Source: Croceimicrobium hydrocarbonivorans (GTDB lineage: Bacteria; Bacteroidota; Bacteroidia; Flavobacteriales; Schleiferiaceae). Taken from it: a DNA stretch of 64,000 bases. The translations under genes were made by a program, and so were the position numbers. This document shows positions 2,458 through 53,685 of this stretch, piece by piece; the stretch's first letter is position 1; every line of letters starts with the position of its first letter. Below the pieces are notes generated by a model. The model was not told the DNA's origin. It was given only the letters and a program-made list of their open reading frames with translations, and searched no databases. The stretch spans positions 3,231,501 to 3,295,500 of the forward strand of contig NZ_CP060139.1 in assembly GCF_014524565.1 (NCBI RefSeq), read 5' to 3'.

Positions 2458-3315
2458 ATGGGAACTGCAGGGAAAGGAAATTGGTGGCATATTTTGTATC
2501 AGTCAATCTTAGCATTGATTGTTATTATCGTGACCTTATGGCTGGGATTTGAAGGATACGATTATTACCAAACTCCCCTGGAAGAGCGCTTCTATCACGA
2601 GCATCATGAATGGTTTAAGGCCTCTGGCTTATTTGGTCATGGTTTGGGAATAATTGGAACTGCCCTTATTACAATTGGGGTGTTTCTGTACATACCGGCC
2701 AAGAAATATGGCTTTCTGGAAAAATACATGCGCTTGCGCTATTTGTTGGAGTTTCACATTTTTCTCTGCACCCTAGGGCCAATCTTAATACTCTTTCACA
2801 CCACCTTTAAATTTGGAGGAATCGTATCCATTGCTTTTTGGTCGATGGTATTAGTGGTTCTATCCGGAGTAGTGGGGCGCTATATCTATTTACAAATTCC
2901 ACGCAGTATTTCGGGACGTGAACTATCACGACAAGAATTAAAGGAAGAACAAGAACGTTCTTTATCCACATTGGCGATGGTGGCCGATCAAGCCCCCGAG
3001 CTTTACCAGCATATCCGTGAATATCAAAATGATGAGAAAGGCTATTTTGCCCGAAGGACACATTTCCGCAATCACTTTAATCAGCTTAAATCGCAATTGG
3101 GAGCATTGCAATTGGATGCCAAAGAACACAAGTCGATATTAAGCAATATCAAAGCGGAAATGGTTTTGCAACAACGCATACACCGATTGGCTTTAATGCA
3201 AAAGCTCTTCAAGTATTGGCATGTGGCCCACCGGCCCTTTGCTTTAATTATGCTCTTGGTGCTAATCATCCATATTGGGGTGACTATGGCCATGGGTTAT
3301 ACCTGGATTTTTTAG
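2458..3315 (+). CDS. Ferric-reductase-like di-haem b membrane protein
   Basis: 285 residues with five predicted membrane helices (about 12-32, 60-80, 96-117, 121-144, 258-282). Histidines H100/H114 in helix 3 and H258/H272 in helix 5 are each separated by 13 residues. This HX13H pairing is the classic bis-His haem arrangement of ferric reductase/NADPH oxidase membrane domains. A charged, helical linker (about 150-250) lies between helices 4 and 5. There is no flavin or NAD domain. It opens the electron-transfer operon and the next gene starts 1 nt after its stop, so it probably carries electrons across the inner membrane for the Fe-S/FAD protein. It sits 63 nt behind the efflux genes, so co-transcription with them is possible. 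Confidence 0.72.
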   Translation: MGTAGKGNWWHILYQSILALIVIIVTLWLGFEGYDYYQTPLEERFYHEHHEWFKASGLFGHGLGIIGTALITIGVFLYIPAKKYGFLEKYMRLRYLLEFHIFLCTLGPILILFHTTFKFGGIVSIAFWSMVLVVLSGVVGRYIYLQIPRSISGRELSRQELKEEQERSLSTLAMVADQAPELYQHIREYQNDEKGYFARRTHFRNHFNQLKSQLGALQLDAKEHKSILSNIKAEMVLQQRIHRLALMQKLFKYWHVAHRPFALIMLLVLIIHIGVTMAMGYTWIF

Positions 3316-3316
3316 C

Positions 3317-4636
3317 ATGTGGGAAGTATTGATATATGGCTTTGTCATTCTGCTTTCGGGTGCAATTGTCTGGTACTATTGGAGTTCCGGGCAAAAACGC
3401 TCTAAGGAAGTAGCCGCCAAAGTGGAGCAAGCTCAGGAAGAGGGGCGTTTTCAGCCAGTATCCCTACATCCCTATATCGATCCCCATAAGTGTATTGGTA
3501 GTGGCGCCTGTGTTCGCGCTTGTCCGGAAGAAGATATTTTAGGTTTAATTGATGGCAAAGGCACCTTAATTAATGCCAGCAGTTGTATTGGTCATGGCGC
3601 TTGTTTTCATGCCTGTCCCGTGGATGCGATTAGTTTGCGCATTGGCACTGAAGTACGAGGGGTGGATTTACCCCATATAAAACCGAACTACGAAACCAAT
3701 ATTTCCGGAATTTACATTGCCGGTGAATTAGGGGGCATGGGCCTCATTAAAAATTCCGCTGAGCAAGGAGTACAGGCTTGTAATAATTTGGCTGAAGAAT
3801 TACCCTCAGAGTGCTCATGTGAAACGGATGTAGTGATAATTGGCGCTGGTCCGGCAGGCATCGCTGCGGCATTAAAAGCCAAAGAAAAAGGATTAACCTT
3901 CCGAGTGCTGGAACAAGATTCCTTGGGGGGAACCGTGTTTACTTTTCCTCGGGATAAAGTAGTAATGACCAGCCCCATGGACTTGCCACTCTACGGTAAG
4001 TTGAAATTGAATAATACCTCCAAAGCTGAATTATTAGGGATTTGGAATGAGGTTCTGGATAAGCATCAAATTCAAATTGAAGAGCATTCGAAAGTAGAAC
4101 GGATCTCTCAAATAGGAGCTTACCATTTTAAATTGGATACCTCGAAAGGGGAGGCCGTGGAAGCACGTTCAGTGATCATCGCCATTGGTAGGAGAGGGAC
4201 GCCTAGAAAATTAGGCGTTCCCGGTGAAGAAAGTAGCAAAGTTGCCTATCGATTATTGGAGCCCGAGCATATTCAGGGCGAGAAGGTGCTGGTTGTTGGC
4301 GGTGGGGATTCAGCCGTGGAATCGGCTTTGCTTTTAGCCGATCATAATGAAGTGCATCTATCTTATCGCAAGCAACATTTCGCGCGCATCAAAAAAGGCA
4401 ATCAGGAGAAGTTAGAAGCGGCCCTAGCTTCGGGAAAAATTAGCCCATTGTTGGGTACTAATGTTAGCCGTATCGAGGAGAAAAAGCTAAGTTTAGTTCG
4501 GGAAGATGGATCAGAATTCGAAATTGAAAATGATCGCATTTACATCTTCGCTGGTGGAGAGTTACCCATTCCCTTCTTGCAGGATGCTGGAATTACAGTC
4601 GAGAAAACCTTTGGAAAAACCCTTCGTAAGCATTGA
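3317..4636 (+). CDS. Membrane-anchored ferredoxin-FAD/NAD(P) oxidoreductase (YpdA/thioredoxin-reductase-like fold)
   Basis: 439 residues. One N-terminal helix (4-22) is followed by Lys/Arg, suggesting a cytoplasmic body. Residues 59-69 and 90-100 are two ferredoxin-type motifs (CIGSGACVRAC, CIGHGACFHAC). A FAD Rossmann motif GAGPAG lies at 176-181 and an NAD(P) motif GGGDSA at 328-333. There is no redox CxxC of thioredoxin reductase. The stretch LGGTVFTFPRDKVVM resembles YpdA-type flavoproteins. The family is therefore a pyridine-nucleotide oxidoreductase with its own Fe-S input. Each ferredoxin motif lacks the usual second Cys (Ser62 and His93 there), so the clusters may be 3Fe-4S or absent. 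It overlaps the next gene by TTGA. Likely electron donor or acceptor of the b-type protein. Confidence 0.78.
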   Translation: MWEVLIYGFVILLSGAIVWYYWSSGQKRSKEVAAKVEQAQEEGRFQPVSLHPYIDPHKCIGSGACVRACPEEDILGLIDGKGTLINASSCIGHGACFHACPVDAISLRIGTEVRGVDLPHIKPNYETNISGIYIAGELGGMGLIKNSAEQGVQACNNLAEELPSECSCETDVVIIGAGPAGIAAALKAKEKGLTFRVLEQDSLGGTVFTFPRDKVVMTSPMDLPLYGKLKLNNTSKAELLGIWNEVLDKHQIQIEEHSKVERISQIGAYHFKLDTSKGEAVEARSVIIAIGRRGTPRKLGVPGEESSKVAYRLLEPEHIQGEKVLVVGGGDSAVESALLLADHNEVHLSYRKQHFARIKKGNQEKLEAALASGKISPLLGTNVSRIEEKKLSLVREDGSEFEIENDRIYIFAGGELPIPFLQDAGITVEKTFGKTLRKH

Positions 4637-6234
4637 GAGAGTTCAATAAAATAGCGTTCATCCTACTGTTTGGCTTAAGCAGTGTTTCGCTTTGGGCGCA
4701 GTTTTCTCCGGGTAAGCTTTCCGAGGCACATGCTAAGTATGAGGGCTTGGATAATTGTACTCTCTGCCATGAAATTGGTGCCCAGATTTCGGAGAAGAAA
4801 TGCCTCGAATGTCATAAGGAATTACAAAGCCTGATCGATTTAAAACGAGGCTATCATTCCTCCAAAGAGGTGAAAGAGAAAAGCTGTATTAAATGCCATA
4901 GTGAACATCATGGGCGCAAGTTCGATGCGGTTCGATTTGATCAGGAAAATTTCAATCACAATTTAACTGGCTATAAGCTCGAAGCAGCACATGATCGTAT
5001 TGATTGCCGTGATTGCCATAAAGCCGATTTTATTTCGGATTCTGAGATTGCGGGGCGTATAGGAACATTCTTGGGTCTGGAAGAATCTTGTCTTAGTTGC
5101 CATGTAGATTACCATCAAGGAAGCTTAGGTAAGGATTGCCTTTCTTGCCACAATTTTGAAGAGTTTCCGCAAACTCCGGGCTTTGACCATGCCAAAACCG
5201 ATTTTCCCTTAAAAGGAGCGCATCAAAATGTAAACTGCCTCGAATGTCATCCCAAGGAAGTTCGTGCGGGTAAAGATTTTCAAAAGTTTAGCGACATTGC
5301 TTTTAGTCGTTGTACCGATTGCCATGAGGACGCCCATCAAGGGAAATTTGGCCAAAATTGTACGGATTGTCATTCTGAGCAATCCTGGCTTAAGCTTAAA
5401 AATCGCAATTCCTTTAATCACGATTTAACGGATTATCCCTTGCGCGGCATGCATCGCACGGTAAGTTGTAGTGAATGTCATACGAGTGGCGATTTTAGAA
5501 AGGCCATGCCCTTTGCCAATTGCATTGACTGCCACGAAGATTACCATGAGGGGGAAATAGAAAGTATTGTCCTAAAGAAGCAAGATTGTGATGCCTGCCA
5601 TAGCCTCGATAGGCCCTTTACTTACAGTTCTTACGATTGGGAAGATCATGAGAACAATGGCTTTCCCCTGCAAGGAGCTCACTTAGCCACTCCTTGTTTT
5701 GCCTGCCATAAAGAATCGGAAGAGAGCCGTTGGGACTTTGCCTTTGAAGCACAGAACTGTGTATCTTGTCATGAGAATATTCATGAGGGGCTTATCAGCG
5801 AAAGCTATTTCCCGGAACAAAATTGCGAGGCTTGTCATAATGCAGAGGCATGGTCGCAAGTTCAGTTTAAACACGAAGAAACAGGTTGGGCCTTAGAAGG
5901 AGCACATGCTCGTCAAGAATGTCGCGAATGCCACTTTGAAGGAGAGGAGCAGCACTTTAAGGATCGCGATCAAACTTGTGTGCAATGCCATGATAATGTG
6001 CATGGTAAGCAATTTGAAGAAGAGGGGAAAACCAATTGCCTGGCCTGCCATCAAAGTGCTGAGCAATGGAAGGCTGACCTTTTTGATCATCAGATCACTG
6101 AATTCCCTCTGGAAGGACGCCATGCCGAAATAGACTGTTCCGCTTGCCATAAAGCTGAAATGCAGTCTGATGGCCAAGAAAGAGTTATTTACAAAATAGA
6201 GAAATTCCAATGCATCGATTGTCACGGTACCTAA
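4633..6234 (+). CDS. Multihaem c-type cytochrome with 20 CxxCH motifs
   Basis: 533 residues from a TTG start inside the previous stop (TTGA). A signal peptide spans residues 1-22 (cleavage after WAQ), with no lipobox Cys, so the product is exported to the periplasm or beyond. I count 20 CxxCH haem-attachment motifs by eye, about one per 26 residues. A module of the form F-x-H-x2-T-x-[FYW]-x-L-x-G-x-H-x4-C-x2-CH recurs about six times and supplies extra His that could be distal haem ligands. This is the cytochrome c3-like/porin-cytochrome type of haem wire. It overlaps the next cytochrome gene by 25 nt. Whether it is periplasmic or exposed on the surface is not settled by sequence. Confidence 0.88.
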   Translation: MREFNKIAFILLFGLSSVSLWAQFSPGKLSEAHAKYEGLDNCTLCHEIGAQISEKKCLECHKELQSLIDLKRGYHSSKEVKEKSCIKCHSEHHGRKFDAVRFDQENFNHNLTGYKLEAAHDRIDCRDCHKADFISDSEIAGRIGTFLGLEESCLSCHVDYHQGSLGKDCLSCHNFEEFPQTPGFDHAKTDFPLKGAHQNVNCLECHPKEVRAGKDFQKFSDIAFSRCTDCHEDAHQGKFGQNCTDCHSEQSWLKLKNRNSFNHDLTDYPLRGMHRTVSCSECHTSGDFRKAMPFANCIDCHEDYHEGEIESIVLKKQDCDACHSLDRPFTYSSYDWEDHENNGFPLQGAHLATPCFACHKESEESRWDFAFEAQNCVSCHENIHEGLISESYFPEQNCEACHNAEAWSQVQFKHEETGWALEGAHARQECRECHFEGEEQHFKDRDQTCVQCHDNVHGKQFEEEGKTNCLACHQSAEQWKADLFDHQITEFPLEGRHAEIDCSACHKAEMQSDGQERVIYKIEKFQCIDCHGT

Positions 6235-7232
6235 CGCTATTCCTCTTTGGAGCGATTGGGCTTATGGCTCAAAACCCGCATGGAGAAGGATTTAAAATCA
6301 ATTGTTCGGATTGCCATAATTCGGGCTCCTGGCAAGTGAATTTACAAAACATGAAGTTCGATCATGCCAGTACGGGCTTCGAATTGGAAGGGCAGCATGC
6401 CGCGGTCGCTTGTATGGATTGCCATGAGAATTTGGAATTTAAAAAAGTAGGCACTCAATGTGTCGAATGCCATACCGATGTGCATCAGATGAGTGTCGGC
6501 GACGATTGTAAGCGCTGCCATGATAGCGAATCCTGGTTGGTTTTTAATATCCCTGATCTGCACGAACAAAATGGATTTCCTTTACAAGGCGCTCACATTA
6601 CCTTAGCTTGCATCGATTGCCATGATGCTTCTAATAATTTGGTTTGGCAAAGGCAGGGCCAGGAATGCGTAGATTGCCATCGCGAAGATTATCAAACCGC
6701 TTCCGACCCAGATCACGTAGCTTCAGGCTTTTCCATCGATTGTATTCAATGCCATGAACCCCTCAGTCAGCAATGGGGTGGCGATAATTTTCACTATTTC
6801 TTTCCCTTGGTTTTAGGTCATGATGGCCTGGATTGTATGGACTGTCATACCAGCCCCACTTACGATCAAATTCAGCCGATATGCTCTACTTGTCACATCG
6901 ATGATTATCAAAGTGCGACCAATCCCAATCACCTGAGTTCTGGTTTCCCAACGGATTGTGCCCTTTGCCATAATACCAATCCAGGCTGGGCACCGGCAAG
7001 CTTCGAAAATCACGATGATGATCATTTCCCGATTTATAGCGGAACCCACCGTGGAACCTGGAGTTCTTGCACCGAATGCCATACCAATACCTCTAATTAC
7101 AATATTTTCAGTTGTATCGATTGCCATGAGCATAGTGATAAGTCGCGCATGGATAAAAAACACGACGATGTAGGCGGTTACCGATACGAGAGCAATGCCT
7201 GTTATAACTGTCATCCCACCGGAAGAGAATGA
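6210..7232 (+). CDS. Multihaem c-type cytochrome with 13 CxxCH motifs
   Basis: 340 residues. The ATG at 6210 lies inside the end of the 20-haem gene (25-nt overlap), and is supported because it gives a full signal peptide (residues 1-20, cleavage after LMA). I count 13 CxxCH motifs. The same F-x-H-x-(S)T-x-F-x-L-x-G-x-H module as in the upstream cytochrome is present near residues 50-70, with weaker versions later, so the two are paralogues or share a repeat origin. The beta-barrel gene starts with an ATGA overlap. The likely role is a second haem wire in the same conduit, for example the periplasmic or in-barrel subunit. Confidence 0.87.
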   Translation: MHRLSRYLTLFLFGAIGLMAQNPHGEGFKINCSDCHNSGSWQVNLQNMKFDHASTGFELEGQHAAVACMDCHENLEFKKVGTQCVECHTDVHQMSVGDDCKRCHDSESWLVFNIPDLHEQNGFPLQGAHITLACIDCHDASNNLVWQRQGQECVDCHREDYQTASDPDHVASGFSIDCIQCHEPLSQQWGGDNFHYFFPLVLGHDGLDCMDCHTSPTYDQIQPICSTCHIDDYQSATNPNHLSSGFPTDCALCHNTNPGWAPASFENHDDDHFPIYSGTHRGTWSSCTECHTNTSNYNIFSCIDCHEHSDKSRMDKKHDDVGGYRYESNACYNCHPTGRE

Positions 7233-8836
7233 TGCAGAAGGCCTACATAGGATTTGTTTTTATACTGTACACTTTGGGCCTTTCAGCCCAGGAAGTGCGC
7301 CAGGCTGAGGTAAGCTATGTAAATGATCAAAGCGTTTACCTGCGCTTTCAAAGCACCGAAGCCTTAAGGGAGGGGGATACCCTCTTTAACCAAAATGGCG
7401 GGCAGGCTTGTTTGCGCATTCAAAAGATATCCTCCGTATCCTGTTTGGCCGAGCGCATTGCAAATTGTGAAATCAGCAAAGGCCAGATTTTCGAGGTGCG
7501 CCTTTCGGCGGATGTGACTCCAGCGGAGGAAGAAGCTCCTGAAGTATTGGAAAGTCCCCAAGTAGTGGAAAGTAGCAGCGATAGTTTATCGCGCAGTCAA
7601 GTGCGTGATCGCAGCAATAGCATGCGCAACAAAGATCGAGGCTATTTAAATTTATCCTTAAATAATGGCAGCACCCTAAGTACCAATGGCCGCGAAAATT
7701 ACCGTACTAATTTTAGAGCCAGCCTTAAGGTAGATAGTTTATTCGGGCAAAATTTAAGTTTGGAAGCCTACGGCAATATGCAGGACTTTAGACGCTCCTA
7801 CGAAAGTGATGGCGAAAATTTCCGAGCGCTGATTTACAATTTAGCGCTGATCTATAAGCCTGGTAGCCATCATCAACTGGTAGTAGGGCGTAAAATTAAT
7901 AGCCGCATTTCTTCCTTAGGTGCCATAGACGGTTTGCAGTGGGAAGGGAATTGGAATAATTGGCGGGCTGGAGCCATTGTGGGCAGTCGCCCGGATTTTA
8001 GTAATTACGGCTACAATGCTAATCTCCTGCAGTATGGCGCTTATGGTGCTTACGATTGGCGTACCAAGTCTTGGACCGGACAATGGACCCTAGGCTTAAT
8101 GGAACAAAGAAATCAAGGGGCGATTGATCGTCGTTATTTGTACACCCAACAATCGATGCGTTGGGGGAAATGGTCTTGGTTTGCGTCCTTGGAAATCGAC
8201 CTCTATGAAAATTTTGATACTGCTCAGGCTGGCACTAAGGCCCGCTTAACCTCTCTTTATTTATCAATGCGTTATCGACCTACCAGTCGCTTAACCCTCT
8301 TTAGTTCCTATGATACCCGCCAACAAATAATATTCTTTGAGCGCTACGATAGCGATGTAGAACGTCTATTGGCAGAGCAGGGTGCACGCCAGGGTTTTAG
8401 ACTTCGTGGTGACTATCGCTTTTTTCGGGCTACTCATTTGGGCTTAAGCTATAATCTTCGCACCAACCCTACTTTTGGAAACCGTAGCCAAAACTTGCAG
8501 GCCTATCTCAGTCATCATCGTTTGCCCTGGATTGGTGGTAGCCTTACTTATCGATTTAATAAAAACCAAAACGGGAATTTAAATTCGGAGATAAATTCCT
8601 TGCGCTACTCGCGATCCTTCAATTCAGGATTTCGCATGTCGGCCTATTATCGCTATGCTTCGTATCGCTATGTTCTTCGTGAAATCACCCTCGATCCCCA
8701 GCATTATTACGGTGCAGAATTGAGCTGGCTAATGGCCAAGGATTGGAATCTGGGAATTATGGGAGAATATAGCCAAATAAGCGATCAAGACCTGTTTCGA
8801 ATGTATCTTCGCATCCAGAAAAGATTCAAATTTTAG
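7229..8836 (+). CDS. Outer-membrane beta-barrel protein, putative porin of a porin-cytochrome conduit
   Basis: 535 residues. Signal peptide 1-20 (cleavage after LSA). Residues 21-95 form a small beta-rich domain with four Cys. A Glu/Ser-rich linker (95-130) follows. From about 135 to the end the sequence alternates polar and aromatic/hydrophobic residues in some 18-22 strand-like segments rich in Tyr, Trp and Arg, ending in Phe (KRFKF), the usual outer-membrane barrel signature. No plug or TonB box is visible. Its place directly behind two multihaem cytochromes (ATGA overlap) suggests it houses a haem wire across the outer membrane, as MtrB/OmbB proteins do. It has no obvious sequence match to those that I can recognise by eye. 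Confidence 0.72.
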   Translation: MMQKAYIGFVFILYTLGLSAQEVRQAEVSYVNDQSVYLRFQSTEALREGDTLFNQNGGQACLRIQKISSVSCLAERIANCEISKGQIFEVRLSADVTPAEEEAPEVLESPQVVESSSDSLSRSQVRDRSNSMRNKDRGYLNLSLNNGSTLSTNGRENYRTNFRASLKVDSLFGQNLSLEAYGNMQDFRRSYESDGENFRALIYNLALIYKPGSHHQLVVGRKINSRISSLGAIDGLQWEGNWNNWRAGAIVGSRPDFSNYGYNANLLQYGAYGAYDWRTKSWTGQWTLGLMEQRNQGAIDRRYLYTQQSMRWGKWSWFASLEIDLYENFDTAQAGTKARLTSLYLSMRYRPTSRLTLFSSYDTRQQIIFFERYDSDVERLLAEQGARQGFRLRGDYRFFRATHLGLSYNLRTNPTFGNRSQNLQAYLSHHRLPWIGGSLTYRFNKNQNGNLNSEINSLRYSRSFNSGFRMSAYYRYASYRYVLREITLDPQHYYGAELSWLMAKDWNLGIMGEYSQISDQDLFRMYLRIQKRFKF

Positions 8837-8838
8837 TC

Positions 8839-9582
8839 ATGCGCAGACTGAGCTTTTTAGCGGCTCTGGCACTTTTCGCTTGTCAACAGCAGCCCACCGT
8901 TATCGAAACGGAGGATTCATCCGTAAAGGAGATTTTTAATTCTGACAGTAGTCCTGAAAACAATCCCAATGCCGAGCATCGGGTAGTGGTTTTAGATACC
9001 CTACAAAGTTCGAGGTATTCCTATCTCAAAGTAAAGGAAGGGGAGAAGGAGTTTTGGTTAGCCACCATGCGTTCCGATTTCCAAATAAATGAGGAATACA
9101 GCTTTAGCAAGGGATTGTATAAAACCGATTACTATTCAACCGAATTCGATCGCAGCTTTGATGAAATTTATTTGGTTTCACAATTGCGTCCGCTCTTTTC
9201 GGGTAGCCAAAAACAGGCTTTGGATCAGATGTTTAAAGGTGGACAGAAAGCCCCTGAAGCTGCTGTGGAAATTTCGGAAGCGGATTATGATCGGGAAGGA
9301 TCAATCAAGATCAAAGAACTGATACAGAACGCCGAGAACTACATCAATAAGGAAGTGCAAATCACCGCCAAGGTTACAAAGATCAATGCCAATATTATGG
9401 ATCGTCATTGGTTGCACCTTAAGGATGGAAGCTTTGATACTTTCGATTTGGTAGCTACTTCTCAAACTGCGGTGCCCGCGGGCCATATCGTGACCCTAAA
9501 GGCAACTTTGCATCAAGATGTAGATTTTGGTGCGGGCTATACCTACAATCTTATTTTGGAAAATGCCGAGGTAATACCTTGA
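8839..9582 (+). CDS. Lipoprotein with C-terminal OB-fold-like domain
   Basis: 247 residues. Lipoprotein signal with Cys15 (ALFAC). Residues 15-45 are a low-complexity acidic tether. Residues about 48-95 form one beta-rich segment (DTLQSSRYSYLKVKEGEKEF...). Residues about 155-247 look like an OB-fold (ENYINKEVQITAKVTKINAN, then HWLHLKDG), a fold seen in several small periplasmic proteins. It starts 2 nt after the barrel gene and lies 19 nt before ccsBA. Its role is unknown. It could assist haem protein assembly or bind the conduit at the membrane. I do not recognise a named family. Confidence 0.7.
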   Translation: MRRLSFLAALALFACQQQPTVIETEDSSVKEIFNSDSSPENNPNAEHRVVVLDTLQSSRYSYLKVKEGEKEFWLATMRSDFQINEEYSFSKGLYKTDYYSTEFDRSFDEIYLVSQLRPLFSGSQKQALDQMFKGGQKAPEAAVEISEADYDREGSIKIKELIQNAENYINKEVQITAKVTKINANIMDRHWLHLKDGSFDTFDLVATSQTAVPAGHIVTLKATLHQDVDFGAGYTYNLILENAEVIP

Positions 9583-9601
9583 TAACCAGAAAATAATTCC
9601 A

Positions 9602-12600
9602 GTGCAAAAAATTCTTGATTTACTCTTCGGCCGCCGAGCCGCTTTAGTATATATCCTTCTATTTGCCGCCGCTGTAGGGGTGGCCACCTTTGTAGAAAAC
9701 GATTATGGTACGGATAGTGCCCAAAAGGTGATTTACCAATCTACCTGGTTTGAGCTGCTCCTCTTTTTGTTTTCCGGCGCTATTGTGAAAAACGTATTGG
9801 ACTTCCGATTAATACAGCGGAAGATGTGGGCAGTGCTCACCTTTCACCTAGCGATATTGGTAATCTTACTCGGAGCAGGTATTACCCGCTTTAGCGGTTT
9901 TGAAGGTATGATGCACATTCGTGAAGGCGAGCAGAGCAATCAATACCTTTCTACGGAGGGATATCTCAAATTACGCTTTACCAAAGACAATCGCGAGTAT
10001 CTCATTGAAGAGCCAGTTTTATGGTCATCTCTGGGCTCCAATGATTTTTCAGAAACCTATCAGCTTAATAATGAGAAGGTAAATCTTAGAGTTAAGGAGG
10101 TTTATATCAATCCCGAGTACGAGATGGAAGCCGCCGATCAAGGGGAGCCCATTATCAAAGTAGTATTTGGCTCGGATGCTGGTCGGAATGAGTATTACCT
10201 GCATTACAATTCGCAGCGTCGTTTAGGAGGGGTGCCCTTTTACTTCGGTCCTGGTATTATGCCCAATCATTTCAATATTGATTTGGATAGTGAGGGGCGA
10301 GCTATGGTTACAAGCGCTGAAGCCTATAGCTATATGCGCATGGCAGACCGCAGCATGCACGATGTACCTGCAGATACGGCCACAGAATTAGCCTTGCGAA
10401 GTTTATACCGTTGGGGCGGATCCGCCTTTGTATTCGGCGATTATCAGAAATCAGCCCGTCTCAAACGTTCGGAAGGAAGCTTAAAAATCCAATCTTCATC
10501 TACCATCGGAATTTTGCTTGAGGTGCAGAAAGGGGAGCAAGTCGAAGAAGTATATATCGAAGGATTCAAAGGTTATCCCGGTAAAGCTGAAATGGTAGAT
10601 TTGGGTAGCATGCAATTGGCCTTGTCTTATGGCTCCAAAGTGCGTGAATTGCCTTTCAGTATTAAGCTATACGATTTCCAGATGGAGCGTTATCCTGGAA
10701 CCAATTCACCGGCATCTTATGCCAGCGAAGTACAGGTATTAGATCCAAGGGGCGGGAAGGAATTTGACTTCCGTATATACATGAATCACATTCTGAATTA
10801 TGGCGGATATCGCTTTTTCCAATCCTCTTATGATCGCGATGAAACCGGAACCTACCTTTCGGTGAACCATGATTTTTGGGGCACCTGGATTACCTATTTA
10901 GGATATACTCTGCTAACCATAGGAATGTTATGGAGCTTGGTTGCCCGGAACACTCGCTTTGCCCAATTATCAAAACAGATTCGTGAGTTAAGAGCGCGGC
11001 GTTCTGCGACCTTAGTCTTGATTTTGGCCACGGCCTTTGGCATGCAGGCCCAAACTGAATTGGAATCGGAATTACATGCCGTTTCGAAGGAACATGCCAG
11101 TGTATTCAGTACCGTATTGGTTCAGGATATCAATGGCCGGATGAAGCCGATGCATACCTTGAGCAGAGAGGTTTTACGGAAACTTACCGGAAAAGAAAGC
11201 TATCGTGGTCTGGATGCTGATCAAGTCCTATTAAGTGTTTGGGCTAATAATCAGGAATGGTATGGGGAACCTATGATCAAATTGCCCTTTCATCCTCGAT
11301 TTGCCGAAATGGGTTTTACAGAAAAACTCCAAGCTTATAAAGCCTTCTTTAATACCGATGGATCTTACAAACTCGCTGATGAGGTTCAAAAGGCTAATTC
11401 TGTGATAGACAAGGAAAAAGGAACTTGGGAAAAGGCCCTATTGAAATTGGATGAGAAGATTAATATCTTCAATATGATGCTCTCCGGTTATCTCTTGCGC
11501 ATTGTGCCTTTGGAAGGAGATATCAATAATACCTGGGTGTCTGATTACAGTCATGGTGAGCAGAGTTCTATTGTGGCAGACAAGCTTTTCCCGGCTTATT
11601 TAGCGGCCCTCAATAATGGAATGCAATCCGGCGATTATAAGGTGGCGAATACCATCATCAGTGAGTTGATGAAGTATCAAAATGCCCAGGATCCCGAAAT
11701 CTTGCCTTCCAATACCCAGCGTAAATTGGAAATCTTCTTGAATGAATTGAAGGTCTTTAATAGACTGGCATTGGTTTATACCTTGCTAGGCCTGGCCTTT
11801 TTACTACTCTTGTTTTTACAGGTATTTAGACCGAAGAACAGTTTTTCCAAACTGCATCTGGTCCTTTTAATCTTGATGTTTGCGGCTTTCTTCTTCCATA
11901 CTTTAGGATTGGGCTTGCGTTGGTATGTTTCCGGTCGTGCGCCTTGGAGTAATGGTTATGAGAGTATGATATACATCGCCTGGACCGGAACTTTGGCGGG
12001 ATTGATTTTCAGCCGTAAGTCGAGTGGAGCCTTGGCCGCTACCAATGTTCTTAGTGGTGTGGTGTTGTTAATCGCAATGTTGAGTTATCTCAATCCGGAG
12101 ATTACGCCTCTGGTACCCGTATTACGTTCGTATTGGCTAACTATTCACGTATCTCTGGAAGCGGGATCCTATGGCTTCTTAATGCTTGGAGCCTTAATTG
12201 GGGTGATCAATTTGCTTCTAATGATATTCTTGAATCAGGAGAATAAAAAACGCGTGCGCGATATTGTATCGGAAATGACCAAACTCAGTGAGATGACCTT
12301 GATTGGCGGTCTCTTTATGTTGAGCATCGGAACCTATTTAGGTGGGGTTTGGGCCAATGAAAGTTGGGGCCGATATTGGGGTTGGGATGCTAAAGAAACC
12401 TGGGCCTTAGTGTCGATATTGGTCTATGCCTTTATTCTGCACATGCGCTTTTTACCTGGCTTAAAGAGTCATTTTGCCTTCAACTTTGCGACCCTGTTTG
12501 GTTTGGCCTCCATTATTATGACCTATTACGGAGTAAATTATTACCTCTCCGGATTGCATAGTTATGCTGCAGGCGATCCGGTGCCGGTGCCAGCCTGGGT

Positions 12601-12685
12601 ATATTATTCCATTGCTAGCTTAGTATTGATAAGCGCTTTGGCCTGGTGGCGTCAACGAAAGATTTGGCGCAAGTCTAAAGCTTAA
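9602..12685 (+). CDS. ccsBA: Fused cytochrome c biogenesis protein CcsB-CcsA (system II haem lyase)
   Basis: 1027 residues from GTG. The N-terminal half is ResB/CcsB-like: helices near 15-32, 50-66 and 80-98, a large periplasmic domain (about 100-420), then a helix near 425-445. The C-terminal half is CcsA-like with several helices and the haem-handling motif WGRYWGWDAKE at about 922-932. Conserved periplasmic His residues occur in the CcsA part. The middle (about 470-700) holds a periplasmic segment preceded by a signal-like stretch ending in MQAQ. The protein ligates haem to CxxCH motifs outside the inner membrane. It closes the cytochrome operon, so the cluster brings its own maturation enzyme. 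A fused form is usual in Bacteroidota. Confidence 0.92.
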   Translation: MQKILDLLFGRRAALVYILLFAAAVGVATFVENDYGTDSAQKVIYQSTWFELLLFLFSGAIVKNVLDFRLIQRKMWAVLTFHLAILVILLGAGITRFSGFEGMMHIREGEQSNQYLSTEGYLKLRFTKDNREYLIEEPVLWSSLGSNDFSETYQLNNEKVNLRVKEVYINPEYEMEAADQGEPIIKVVFGSDAGRNEYYLHYNSQRRLGGVPFYFGPGIMPNHFNIDLDSEGRAMVTSAEAYSYMRMADRSMHDVPADTATELALRSLYRWGGSAFVFGDYQKSARLKRSEGSLKIQSSSTIGILLEVQKGEQVEEVYIEGFKGYPGKAEMVDLGSMQLALSYGSKVRELPFSIKLYDFQMERYPGTNSPASYASEVQVLDPRGGKEFDFRIYMNHILNYGGYRFFQSSYDRDETGTYLSVNHDFWGTWITYLGYTLLTIGMLWSLVARNTRFAQLSKQIRELRARRSATLVLILATAFGMQAQTELESELHAVSKEHASVFSTVLVQDINGRMKPMHTLSREVLRKLTGKESYRGLDADQVLLSVWANNQEWYGEPMIKLPFHPRFAEMGFTEKLQAYKAFFNTDGSYKLADEVQKANSVIDKEKGTWEKALLKLDEKINIFNMMLSGYLLRIVPLEGDINNTWVSDYSHGEQSSIVADKLFPAYLAALNNGMQSGDYKVANTIISELMKYQNAQDPEILPSNTQRKLEIFLNELKVFNRLALVYTLLGLAFLLLLFLQVFRPKNSFSKLHLVLLILMFAAFFFHTLGLGLRWYVSGRAPWSNGYESMIYIAWTGTLAGLIFSRKSSGALAATNVLSGVVLLIAMLSYLNPEITPLVPVLRSYWLTIHVSLEAGSYGFLMLGALIGVINLLLMIFLNQENKKRVRDIVSEMTKLSEMTLIGGLFMLSIGTYLGGVWANESWGRYWGWDAKETWALVSILVYAFILHMRFLPGLKSHFAFNFATLFGLASIIMTYYGVNYYLSGLHSYAAGDPVPVPAWVYYSIASLVLISALAWWRQRKIWRKSKA

Positions 12686-12767: not shown

Positions 12768-13283
12768 ATGCATATTCCTGAAGAACTAATCCTGGCAAAG
12801 ATCTATGAGATCCGTGGGCAGAAGGTCATGATCGATCGAGACCTGGCCCAGCTCTATGGTGTCCCCACTAAGGTTTTAAAGCAGGCCGTTCGAAGAAAGC
12901 TATTTCGATTTCCAGAGGATTTCATGTTTGAAATGTCCGATACGGAGTTTCAATTTTGGAGGTCACAAATTGTGACCTCCAGCAAAGCGAGCCGGGGCCT
13001 GCGATACGCGCCATTTTGCTTTACTGAACAAGGCGTTACCATGCTCTCTTGCGTCCTGAATTCTGATCAGGCCGTAAAGGTGAACATTCAAATAATCCGA
13101 ATCTTCGTGAAGATGCGGAATATGATCCAGCAGCATCAAGAAATTTTAAAAGACTTGGAGGAAATTCGAAATTCAGTAAGCAGTCATGATGAGCAGATTG
13201 AACTGATCTTCCAGTATATACAAAAGCTAGAGGCCCAGAAAACTGAGCCTCGAAATAAGATTGGATATAAGCAGGAGCCCTAG
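12768..13283 (+). CDS. ORF6N domain-containing DNA-binding protein
   Basis: 171 residues. The N-terminal domain (1-90; IYEIRGQKVMIDRDLAQLYG, then RFPEDFMF and FTEQGVTMLS) is a clear match to the ORF6N/KilA-N-type domain found in phage and plasmid regulators. The C-terminal part (110-165) is a coiled coil. It stands alone, 82 nt behind ccsBA, and converges on the LOG-family gene, with the two stop codons interlocked in CTAG (13280-13283). No phage or integrase gene lies next to it. It is probably a domesticated or recently acquired regulator; its target is unknown. Confidence 0.85.
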   Translation: MHIPEELILAKIYEIRGQKVMIDRDLAQLYGVPTKVLKQAVRRKLFRFPEDFMFEMSDTEFQFWRSQIVTSSKASRGLRYAPFCFTEQGVTMLSCVLNSDQAVKVNIQIIRIFVKMRNMIQQHQEILKDLEEIRNSVSSHDEQIELIFQYIQKLEAQKTEPRNKIGYKQEP

Positions 13284-50680: not shown

Positions 50681-51709
50681 TTATCGAATTCCATTGCGGT
50701 TAGCCCAACGGTGGTATTTCGCCTTATTGATATTATGCTGACGCAGGCTCTGAGCAAAGGAATGGTAACCAGGTCGGTCGGGATCTGCGCACATAAAAAT
50801 GTAGGAATGATCCTGCGCTTTTAAAACGGCATCAATACTGCGAGGATCGGGAATGCGAATCGGCCCCGGAGGTAAGCCTGTATGCAAATAAGTATTATAG
50901 GGAGAGTCAATATCCAGGTTCTTGGTATACACTCTTTGCACGATCAAATCCGGATCTTCTATTTTCATGGCATAAATCACCGTAGGATCCGATTGTAATT
51001 TGATGCCTTTTTCCAAACGGTTGAGGTATAAGCCGGCTACCATGGGCATTTCATCGGGGCGAGCAGTTTCGCTTTCCACAATGCTGGCCAGGGTAATAAC
51101 TTCATGTCGGCTTAAGCCACTTTTTTCGAGCAATGCAGTACGACTCTGCCAAAAGCGCTCCGATTCGCGCAGCATCCTTTGAACAAAATCATGTGGACTG
51201 GTAATCCAGTAAAACTCATAGGTGTTAGATAAGAAGAAGCCCGGCAGTTCCTTGCGGCTGATTTTAAAATCTTCCAAAACCTCTTCGCTCTTCAAATATT
51301 TGAGGAAATCCAGCGAATCCGGTTCCAGAGCTTCTCCGGCTTGACCAGCCAAATCTTCCAGGGTATAAGCCATATTAAGGGTAAGGCGCACGGGCTCTTG
51401 AATTCCTGCGCGAAGACGATTCACCAAACTATTATTACTCATGCCACTGCTAATGGCATATTTACCTGGCTTAATGTTATGAGGTAATTTCTTCCATTCG
51501 GCCAGCAGTTCAAAGTATTCGCGATGAATAAGTAGAGTGTCTAGCTGAAGTAAAAGTTCTTCATAGCTAGTGCCTGGCTCAATATAAAGATGATGACTTT
51601 GCTCCAAGCTCACCACATTAGGAGCCCAAATAATGCGTTGGGCTCGATAGCCCAAATAGCCTCCAACTAAAACAATGATGCCAAGAAGAATGAGTAGACC
51701 TCGTTTCAT
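50681..51709 (-). CDS. mltG: Endolytic murein transglycosylase MltG
   Basis: 342 residues. One N-terminal helix (about 4-20), a LysM-like region and the YceG core with the catalytic Glu region ASIVESETARPDEMP, then NRLEKGIKLQSDPTVIYA and TYLHTGLPPGPIRIPD. It cuts nascent glycan strands in the inner-membrane periplasm. It starts inside the stop of the TPR cytochrome gene (ATGA) and ends the dapF operon. Confidence 0.94.
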   Translation of the reverse strand: MKRGLLILLGIIVLVGGYLGYRAQRIIWAPNVVSLEQSHHLYIEPGTSYEELLLQLDTLLIHREYFELLAEWKKLPHNIKPGKYAISSGMSNNSLVNRLRAGIQEPVRLTLNMAYTLEDLAGQAGEALEPDSLDFLKYLKSEEVLEDFKISRKELPGFFLSNTYEFYWITSPHDFVQRMLRESERFWQSRTALLEKSGLSRHEVITLASIVESETARPDEMPMVAGLYLNRLEKGIKLQSDPTVIYAMKIEDPDLIVQRVYTKNLDIDSPYNTYLHTGLPPGPIRIPDPRSIDAVLKAQDHSYIFMCADPDRPGYHSFAQSLRQHNINKAKYHRWANRNGIR

Positions 51710-53685
51710 GAAAAGAATTTCCTGTAGTGTTCCTTAGCCTGGATATTCTGCGGGTCCAAGCGAATTATAGCTTCCAAAGCGCGCTTCAAAGCTAGGGCAT
51801 CTTCGCTTTGCATGGCACGCCGAGCTTCATTTTGCCAAGCTAAAAGATAGTCGGGATAGCGTTCTAAGCAAAGCTTTAAGTATTGTGCTGCCTCGGTATT
51901 ACGGACTTGTTCCAGCATCAAAAAAGCAATATTATTTAGGGATTCCCGATGGTAAGGCTCCTCTTGTAATACTTCCTTCCATAAGCTTTCGGCCTTGGCT
52001 TTTTGTCCTTCGGCATTTAATAAAGCTGCCCATTTATTTTTGAAGTCACCAATAAAGGGAGCCAGTTCTACCGAGCGTTCAAATAGTTTTAAAGCGGATT
52101 CCCTATCACCTTTAAACTGATAAGCTTCCGCCAAACGGTAGGCTGTCCAAGCATCTTTATTTTCATAATCAAGTTCGGTGAGTTCTCGCAATAGATGGTC
52201 GATTCCATATTGCGCTCCGAAGTGATACAAGCTTTCGCGATCACCACTTAAAAAGAAGTAATAGGTCCAGAGGTACAAATGCTCCGATGCTGTTTTAGGC
52301 ACCTCATTTAAGAAGCGGGCCGCACTATCCAAATAAACAGGCTTGGCGCCGAAGCGTTCAAATTGCTGCAAATAAGCCAGGGCTTTATCGCGCGCTGAGG
52401 GTTTAGGATCATTGATAGAGAGCAGGGCTAAAAAGCGACTGGCTTCGGGTGAAACTTGAGTTCCATTTTCCTGAGGCTTACGGATAAAATGATCGTGCAC
52501 CGTAACATGGGGAATGTCGGTGGCCTGAGAGGGAGGCATGTGGCATTGCACACAATTATCTTGTACTAGCTCCCTTTCGGATAGGGGAGCAGAGCACAGT
52601 TTGCTGGCCTTCTCAGGCGAATGACATTCAATACAAGTTTGATTAAAGCTCGCAATCTCCGTATTCTTTACCGACACATGAGGGTTATGGCAAGAGGTAC
52701 AGGTGAAGGTCTCCGGATGAGCCTGATAGCAAGCGCTAAGCTTAAAACGATCCGCATGTGAGGCCATAATAAAGCGATTGTCGGAATCCTCATAGCGTGG
52801 TAAAAAGACCTGCATTACCTCTTTGAGCTCCATGCCTGGTTTAAAGTCGAAAAAGCTTTTGCCTTCCTTTAATACTGCATTGCCTTGAAGGTGACAGCGC
52901 TGGCAAATTTCAAATTGCATTTGGGCACTAAGGCGCTTGGGGTTCACAATACTGCGATCGGCTTCTTTGGCGGTGTCGGTAATTTCACCCCGCATAATTT
53001 TCGCCACATGCGCGCCTCCCGGACCATGGCAGCGTTCGCAATTAATTCCTTCCGGGATACGGCTAAATTTTTGAGTGCTACCCTTTACAAATTGGGTGGG
53101 CATGGCATTGTGGCAAGCCATACATTCCAGGCCAATTTGTCGGTTAAAGCGACTGTTATTTCCCTCCTCAAAGCCAGGAGGGAAGTCTAGCTTTTGTTCT
53201 TGAGCATACCAGGTAAAAGGCGCTTGAAAATAATAGCCATTCTCCTGCCAGAGATGTGAATTGGTATGCTGTCCGCTGCCAATAACATAATCGATCGGCT
53301 GTACTAAATTGTGGATCGTATCGCCATCGGCGCCAAGCCTAAACTCGCGCAGGACTAAGGTATTATCTCGCCAAAATGGTTGATAGTATAAATCTTGATA
53401 GGAGTCGTATAGCTTCTGCTGACCATCAATCTTGGCAATGCTTTTTAGGGTATCGGCCTTGCCAATGGACTGCCCCATTCCGGTTTGGATAAAGGTCTGA
53501 TGTATTCCACTATGACACTGCATACAAGTTTCGATGCCAACATAAGACACCGTATCATGGTGATTGAGCCATTGCAGCGATTCTTCTTTTTCGGCGCTCA
53601 GTTTTTTGGCTGTGGGATGATCACATTGATAAGCCAAAAGCATCACCAAGGCTATAATTCCACTTAAGCTCAAAAACTTCTTCAT
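51706..53685 (-). CDS. Seven-haem c-type cytochrome with TPR domain
   Basis: 659 residues. An N-terminal export signal (about 1-21) ends at AYQC, possibly a non-standard lipobox. Seven CxxCH motifs lie between about residues 55 and 390 (CMQCH, CMACH, CERCH, CQRCH, CTSCH, CIECH, CVQCH), in the style of NapC/NrfB-like or DmsE-type multihaem proteins. Residues about 500-659 are TPR repeats (AYRLAEAYQFKGDRESALKLFERSVE). The function is unknown; it may bind partner proteins. It is placed among cell-wall genes with ATGA overlaps on both sides. Confidence 0.86.
   Translation of the reverse strand: MKKFLSLSGIIALVMLLAYQCDHPTAKKLSAEKEESLQWLNHHDTVSYVGIETCMQCHSGIHQTFIQTGMGQSIGKADTLKSIAKIDGQQKLYDSYQDLYYQPFWRDNTLVLREFRLGADGDTIHNLVQPIDYVIGSGQHTNSHLWQENGYYFQAPFTWYAQEQKLDFPPGFEEGNNSRFNRQIGLECMACHNAMPTQFVKGSTQKFSRIPEGINCERCHGPGGAHVAKIMRGEITDTAKEADRSIVNPKRLSAQMQFEICQRCHLQGNAVLKEGKSFFDFKPGMELKEVMQVFLPRYEDSDNRFIMASHADRFKLSACYQAHPETFTCTSCHNPHVSVKNTEIASFNQTCIECHSPEKASKLCSAPLSERELVQDNCVQCHMPPSQATDIPHVTVHDHFIRKPQENGTQVSPEASRFLALLSINDPKPSARDKALAYLQQFERFGAKPVYLDSAARFLNEVPKTASEHLYLWTYYFFLSGDRESLYHFGAQYGIDHLLRELTELDYENKDAWTAYRLAEAYQFKGDRESALKLFERSVELAPFIGDFKNKWAALLNAEGQKAKAESLWKEVLQEEPYHRESLNNIAFLMLEQVRNTEAAQYLKLCLERYPDYLLAWQNEARRAMQSEDALALKRALEAIIRLDPQNIQAKEHYRKFFS

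Follow-up and report, generated by a model that had tools for sequence, protein, structure and literature searches.

Seven genes, referred to here as A to G, lie head to tail on the forward strand at positions 2458-12685 of a 64,000 nucleotide (nt) stretch of Croceimicrobium hydrocarbonivorans DNA (contig NZ_CP060139.1, positions 3,231,501 to 3,295,500). This stretch, termed the window below, is part of a single-contig genome of 4.04 Mb. Successive genes are separated by gaps of 1, 2 and 19 nt or overlap by 4, 25 and 4 nt, and encode, in order, a putative b-type inner-membrane protein, a flavoprotein with iron-sulphur (Fe-S) motifs, two multihaem cytochromes with 20 and 13 CXXCH sites, a beta-barrel, a likely lipoprotein and a fused CcsBA. 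These coordinates and haem-site counts agree with a preliminary description of the locus, and its proposal that every layer from the cytosol to the outside is encoded here is borne out by the gene content, the motifs and a model of the barrel. We propose that the cluster specifies an envelope-spanning electron conduit of the porin-cytochrome type, fed by the cytosolic pool of reduced nicotinamide adenine dinucleotide (phosphate), NAD(P)H, and carrying electrons outwards, a reading to which we assign a probability of roughly 0.57. Pfam domains were matched in B (Fer4 and pyridine-nucleotide oxidoreductase), in C and D (cytochrome c7/c3) and in G (ResB and Cytochrom_C_asm), while A, E and F matched no Pfam or NCBIfam family above the cut-offs. 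Rfam and tRNA scans of the window found nothing, and no Bacteroidota-type promoter was detected upstream of A with the one pattern tried.

Conservation was assessed in two collections of loci. The first, the named loci, comprises the top 80 out of 158; 79 carry titles of Bacteroidota taxa and one (L054) is titled only 'bacterium'. They include isolates of Yeosuana, Arenibacter, Maribacter, Lutibacter and Flagellimonas as well as metagenome-assembled genomes of Saprospiraceae and Cyclobacteriaceae. The second derives from a scan of 395 Bacteroidota genomes, C. hydrocarbonivorans included, in which A was matched in 59 at an expectation value (E-value) of 1e-3 and in 40, again including its own genome and falling under 14 family labels, at an E-value below 1e-50; up to 20 kb around A was then taken from all 39 other genomes in the latter group to give the sampled loci. 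A, B, C and D occur together within about 20 kb in 36 of these 39, and the set is present in about one in ten sampled genomes of the phylum. Thirty loci hold ABCDE, five ABCD, one ABCDEFG, one ACDE, and two A alone. E was found in 32 of the 39, with four of the other seven being ABCD loci cut off within D; the ACDE locus stops at a contig end, and one of the two solitary A genes (L172) contains internal stop codons. Forty-two of the named loci extend at least 9.5 kb beyond A. Every one of these contains A, B and D, while a separate C is present in 41, E in 40, F in 34 and G in 32. Hence the co-occurrence of barrel and cytochromes elsewhere, which had been set beforehand as a test, was observed in many genomes, with A to E found together. 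The sole roomy locus lacking a separate C is L102, where from position 10363 B and C appear joined in a single 1104-aa reading frame containing 20 haem sites, which is either a true fusion or a sequence error.

Within the order to which C. hydrocarbonivorans belongs, E was found in seven of 196 genomes, its own included. Of the six loci retrieved for these matches, four (L013, L014, L015 and L017) hold A to G, one (L012) is cut by a contig end and one (L016) has relatives of all seven genes in broken frames. The set can also be carried by a plasmid: pEMTOL02 of Emticicia oligotrophica, on which the haem sites number 23 in C and 40 in D, bears the annotations CcsA, hypothetical, NAD(P)-binding, cytochrome c3 (twice), hypothetical and GW-domain.

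A (2458-3315) is predicted to be a b-type protein of the inner membrane. It possesses two histidine pairs in HX13H motifs (H100/H114 and H258/H272) and the sequence SGVVG at residue 136. Both HX13H motifs and SGxxG are kept in all 80 A proteins of the named loci; among the 39 sampled A proteins, SGxxG is found in every one and the two HX13H motifs in 38. The longer form WX3HX13H occurs twice in only 10 of the 80 named A proteins and at least once in 79. Hydropathy and loop charges are compatible with five transmembrane helices, but the windows for helices 2 to 4 overlap. The loop charges (+2/-6 outside; +5/-1 and +19/-13 inside) fit an N-in/C-out topology, which would place the N-terminus and the loop at 148-260 in the cytosol. 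Against Pfam, A gave only two sub-threshold matches, neither of them a ferric reductase, and a profile of A searched against solved structures returned as its best match an interferon at an E-value of 0.043, which is not credible. Short A-like proteins also lie beside C-like cytochromes at L075:7395-9007 (199 aa with two HX13H motifs; 12 haems) and near 15184-16670 of L156, a locus read in reverse (195 aa; 10 haems), so that each of these two loci has, close to the main system, a smaller second one. Under the family label f32, weak matches to A of comparable size recur.

B (3317-4636) starts with a hydrophobic stretch followed by lysine or arginine residues, and 32 of the 36 sampled B proteins score above the threshold for such a stretch. 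Two three-cysteine Fe-S motifs of the form C-x2-X-x2-C-x3-CP follow, then a domain for flavin adenine dinucleotide (FAD) and NAD(P). In the protein from the window, the second cysteine is replaced by serine (Ser62) in motif I and by histidine (His93) in motif II, such that both are non-canonical. The histidine of motif II is present in all 74 named and all 36 sampled B proteins (110 of 110 open reading frames (ORFs), although the two sets may have genomes in common). Motif I is more variable, with serine at this position in 72 of the 74 named proteins (the others having one cysteine and one valine), and serine in 20, cysteine in 14, threonine in one and alanine in one of the 36 sampled. Judged on the residues present, motif I is therefore canonical in part of the family and motif II in none of the members seen, and the histidine of the latter may act as a cluster ligand. 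The FAD/NAD(P) domain is nearest to thioredoxin reductase and YpdA chains; a true thioredoxin reductase was rejected as an identity for B, as no CXXC follows the FAD motif in any of the 74 named or 36 sampled proteins. The score against the YpdA-type reductase model TIGR04018 (154.8 bits, cut-off 339.9) suggests that B is related to this family without being an equivalog.

B is found directly after A in 20 of the 36 sampled loci and after D or E in the other 16, 15 of which have the order A-C-D-E-B; it is thus kept in the cluster although its place shifts. The preliminary description had singled out a flavoprotein partner as distinctive, and this holds in a refined form, the subunit being constant and both Fe-S motifs of the window protein being non-canonical. 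The conduit could instead be fed by quinol, in which case A would oxidise menaquinol and B would either admit NAD(P)H electrons from the side or have a regulatory function, and a quinone-active cytb is indeed proposed, in the text of He et al. (PMC5566968), for proteins with the same HX13H motifs. B, though, accompanies C and D in 36 of 37 sampled loci, with the exception cut by a contig end, which is more than a side role suggests; no quinone site was found, although none was looked for, and we consider a quinol-fed conduit decidedly unlikely. Further support for B as the electron input may come, by analogy, from four plasmids encoding in a row an FAD/NAD/2Fe-2S reductase, a b protein ('iron reductase') with two HX13H motifs and a 7-haem cytochrome c3. 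These were found among 30 plasmid records matching C, the surroundings having been inspected for these four and for the Emticicia plasmid. The triads resemble the cluster in having flavoprotein, b protein and multihaem c protein adjacent, but differ in that the flavoprotein is of another family, the cytochrome is short and no barrel is annotated next to them.

C (4633-6234), which has a signal-like N-terminal stretch, and D (6210-7232) are proposed to be the periplasmic and extracellular wires of the conduit, respectively. Chance does not account for their CXXCH sites: 5000 shuffles of each protein gave means of 0.23 (C) and 0.17 (D), with a maximum of 3. The number of haems in C hardly varies. 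In the named loci (63 ORFs) there are 20 in 16 proteins and 23 in 47; in the sampled loci (39 ORFs) there are 20 in 32, 23 in two, 19 in two, and 5, 10 and 14 in one each, such that 97 of 102 ORFs have either 20 or 23. The 5- and 14-haem ORFs are two pieces in L152, and that with 10 belongs to the small second system of L156. By contrast, complete D ORFs (53 named and 39 sampled, making 92 distinct proteins with no identical protein common to both sets) range from 9 to 73 haems. Of these counts, 86 of 92 equal 1 modulo 3, a figure that serves as a description and not as a probability, since related proteins are not independent. The six exceptions are 9 (three times), 15, 38 and 42, and in the 42-haem protein (L119) one expected haem motif reads CVTCN. 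The repeat unit of D is about 71-78 residues long, and its haems are mostly spaced at around 25, 31-35 and 15-16 residues. Adjoining modules share 87% protein identity in L061 and only 40% in the 73-haem D. In two Yeosuana species whose B proteins are 92% identical, D has 31 and 22 haems and C 23 in both. Taken together, these data indicate that D changes length by whole modules. A tandem-repeat finder detected no repeats at its thresholds in the window cluster or the 73-haem gene. Several loci (L053, L063, L075, L114, L126 and some of L149-L177) contain two D genes of unequal length, with, for example, 13 and 64 or 46 and 19 haems.

The nearest solved structure to a profile of C is PDB 3ov0 (E-value 1.7e-11), a single chain of 318 residues titled 'cytochrome c family protein'. 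We take this to be the twelve-haem Geobacter protein GSU1996, which consists of c7 tri-haem domains; a domain of this kind would account for the 3-haem step of D. D itself produced no match of the 3ov0 type, the best being to a nitrite reductase at an E-value of 0.0033. C was rejected as a decahaem cytochrome of the MtrA/DmsE kind, scoring 43.7 bits against a TIGR03508 cut-off of 192.2. The 10-haem MtrA is given as about 100 Å long in the text of He et al. (PMC5566968), and this rule of thumb would give C a length of about 20 nm and D one of 9-73 nm, in favour of a periplasmic location for C and an outside one for D. A near-fixed C and a variable D are what would be expected of a periplasmic wire of fixed length and an unconstrained outer one. 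The strong variation in haem number also suits an electron store, in which the haems would hold charge like a capacitor as conditions alternate between oxic and anoxic, and few electrons would leave the cell on balance. Such a role has been suggested, in the portions consulted, for large activated-sludge cytochromes (PMC11495043) and for PCC3, one of the porin-cytochrome conduit (PCC) types (PMC10734462). A store needs no barrel, however, and the barrel gene is present in 40 of the 42 roomy named and 32 of the 39 sampled loci, making this explanation highly improbable.

The barrel gene, E (7229-8836), was modelled from an alignment of 43 proteins with a mean predicted local distance difference test score (pLDDT) of 84.6 and a predicted template modelling score of 0.66. 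The model has 22 strands at residues 138-534 and a small N-terminal beta domain at 22-92. The fold matches listed are TonB receptors and other barrels with Z scores of 16-20, the best being PirA (Z 20.1 over 358 residues, root mean square deviation 4.0), and the solved structures listed comprise TonB receptors, ushers and porins. A multihaem-conduit porin does not appear among the entries listed, which excludes nothing. F (8839-9582) is likely to be a lipoprotein, its lipobox cysteine (C15) being kept in five of five proteins compared, and its search against solved structures gave nothing below an E-value of 0.59. G (9602-12685) scores 78.4 bits against ResB (cut-off 24.6) and 130 against Cytochrom_C_asm (cut-off 29.9); with both domains fused in one protein it is, on domain content, a CcsBA of the system II type of haem attachment, although it falls under the TIGR03144 cut-off (175.4 versus 187.6 bits). 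In the named loci it is located either downstream of F, in either orientation, or upstream of A. The idea that G is the only Cytochrom_C_asm gene in the genome was discarded, as there are three matches: G, and CcmF/NrfE-like and CcmC-like genes about 290 kb away, both below their NCBIfam cut-offs. The gene next to this pair looks CcmB-like by eye, with no NCBIfam model matched, and the genome most likely encodes a system I besides the operon CcsBA. Because separate CcmC- and CcmF/NrfE-like genes exist, G looks dedicated to the cluster.

If the cofactor sites are occupied and the products assemble into a complex with the topology proposed, B would be anchored in the inner membrane facing the cytosol, where its FAD would accept hydride from NAD(P)H and it would then pass single electrons through two Fe-S clusters to an inner haem b of A (H100/H258). 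The electron would move on to the outer haem b (H114/H272), be taken across the periplasm by the 20 haems of C and traverse the outer membrane along a haem chain admitted by E. Finally D, with 13 haems in this genome, may continue outside to an acceptor such as Fe or Mn oxide, humics, an electrode, another cell or O2. In C. hydrocarbonivorans G would attach the haems, and F may be an accessory lipoprotein. The direction of flow could be the reverse, with D and C receiving electrons from a partner cell, a cathode, Fe(II) or Mn(II) and handing them on to quinone or NAD(P)+; PCC3 was originally proposed, as He et al. describe it, for uptake from an extracellular donor (PMC5566968). Yet both PCC3 clusters of Sideroxydans ES-1 are reported in the text of PMC8788666 to be downregulated on Fe(II). 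A general consideration points the same way. To reduce NAD(P)+ from outside, electrons would have to move against the membrane potential and, as there is also no coupling subunit among the seven genes, outward flow is favoured and inward flow improbable.

Since outward flow would not in itself generate a membrane potential, a sink or a surface reductase seems a better description of the conduit than energy-conserving respiration. The likeness to NADPH oxidase and ferric reductase (FRD domain) lies in the combination of HX13H pairs on two helices with a cytosolic NAD(P)H-type flavoprotein. The cluster differs in that A has no Pfam ferric reductase match, the flavoprotein is separate, of the thioredoxin-reductase type and furnished with Fe-S motifs, and a multihaem cytochrome follows. 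Conceivably, the purpose of the system is to reduce ferric iron or produce superoxide at the cell surface, for acquiring iron or for defence instead of respiration, an explanation that overlaps the preferred one and differs in purpose alone. The NOX/FRE-like histidine pairing and the type of flavoprotein speak for it, as do two COX1-family genes, which point to a separate aerobic chain in this genome. No iron-uptake gene, however, was recognised among the 14 most frequent neighbouring families, judged by eye and mostly without an identifying search, and overall we think this purpose unlikely.

Several observations weigh against an NAD(P)H-fed conduit. The use of NAD(P)H by B is suggested by domain homology, and an ad hoc pattern for a phosphate-binding arginine occurs in only 47 of 74 B proteins. 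A could, by analogy, exchange electrons with quinone, as the text of He et al. proposes for PCC3 (PMC5566968). The structure model of C was poor (pLDDT 68.6), gave no linear haem chain and was not used. Two loci depart from the set: in L174, the fifth ABCD locus, E was not recognised though the stretch extends past B, and in L145, the clearest exception, an intact A at 4498 (read in reverse) is followed by 15 kb with no B or cytochrome. Lastly, F and G were not detected nearby in 38 of the 39 sampled loci, implying that they are not core and are either confined to some lineages or located elsewhere. The preliminary description of the cluster as 'self-contained' accordingly stands for the window and for 32 of the 42 roomy named loci and fails in the wider sample.

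The closest parallel is with PCC3, which He et al. describe, in the text available, from Alpha-, Beta- and Gammaproteobacteria as a barrel, an extracellular cytochrome (median 34 haems, up to 85), a periplasmic cytochrome (median 21) and a membrane protein of five helices with two WX3HX13H motifs and SGxxG (PMC5566968). PCC3 is likewise given as four genes in Sideroxydans ES-1 (PMC8788666), and Gallionellaceae PCC3 are reported with 21, 24 or 27 inner and 10-35 outer haems (PMC10734462). In that same account by He et al., the membrane protein of PCC3 and PCC4 is a ferric-reductase-like b protein, proposed to be a quinone-active cytb, and the parallel with NADPH oxidase and ferric reductase is already drawn (PMC5566968); such a protein can thus no longer be considered a novelty relative to known PCCs, as had initially been suggested. 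The present cluster shares with PCC3 the barrel, a long variable and a steadier cytochrome and, in the membrane protein, SGxxG together with a pair of HX13H motifs, whereas a flavo-Fe-S subunit, lipoprotein or CcsBA is not named for PCC3 in the text compared, and the double WX3HX13H of the PCC3 membrane protein is the minority form in A. The layout is PCC3-like, and the cluster would work, by analogy, as a PCC3 with an added input subunit; it was not filed as PCC3 because of the rarity of the double-tryptophan form, the two being compared by description and not by sequence. What is new beyond PCC3 as there described is the near-constant flavo-Fe-S partner with its motif II histidine, the stepwise wire and, in this genome, the cluster's own haem-attachment gene. 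No description of such an operon with this subunit, or of a 3-haem step rule, was found in the parts of the open-licence literature searched.

Other conduits are more distant. MtrCAB and OmcB-OmaB-OmbB similarly combine a barrel with multihaem cytochromes on both sides, but the cluster has no CymA-like gene among the seven, and C is far below the cut-off for DmsE-type decahaem proteins. PCCs resembling OmbB and MtrB are noted from Ignavibacteria in the text of PMC7399161. Bacteroidetes are listed among the bacteria with novel putative PCCs in that of PMC6344600, which also mentions a 51-haem putative-PCC protein on an unbinned contig, and very large Bacteroidota cytochromes with more than 100 motifs are called undescribed in the part of PMC11495043 consulted.

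The surroundings of the cluster vary. In the window, TolC and RND adaptor genes (33-2394) end 63 nt upstream of A, and similar neighbours precede A in L013, L048 and L050, whereas L014 and L015 lack them. A family of ORFs resembling RND pumps, as judged by eye, is found in at least 8 of the 80 named loci, many of which are short; a fixed link to metal efflux was not supported by this frequency. An ORF6N-domain gene of the phage-regulator type (12768-13283) follows G in the window, L012 and L013 and was not seen in L014, L015 or L017. Immediately upstream of A in L071, L077, L108 and L127, on either strand, are thioredoxin-like, ApbE and DUF3570 genes, joined by DUF4266 in L077 and L108, as checked with Pfam in L108 and by resemblance in the others; these genes correspond to the flavinylation set described in the text of PMC8238504. 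The genome containing the window has one ApbE gene, far from the cluster. At 51706-53685 on the reverse strand, between YceG and acetyltransferase genes, is a 659-aa protein with TPR repeats and c7 or doubled-CXXCH haem motifs, which showed no sign of a link to the conduit.

Bacteroidota are known mostly as aerobic polymer degraders. Somewhat short of even odds, we suggest that a trans-envelope counterpart of NADPH oxidase, driven by NAD(P)H, is widespread in this phylum, isolates that are ordinary aerobes included. On this reading, a histidine-substituted Fe-S flavoprotein would supply a b-type protein, then a fixed periplasmic wire and lastly an outer wire that evolution would extend or trim in whole 3-haem modules, so tuning its reach or capacity outside the cell independently of the other parts. 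The constant motif II histidine of B makes a concrete spectroscopic prediction, the 3-haem steps of D provide a natural series of 9-73-haem wires for conductivity work, and the Emticicia plasmid represents a natural experiment in which the conduit is directly testable. The role of the very large Bacteroidota cytochromes, as presented in the text of PMC11495043, would likewise become testable where they sit in a defined operon. If the proposal is correct, Bacteroidota would commonly be able to pass electrons from NAD(P)H out of the cell by a path that bypasses the respiratory chain.

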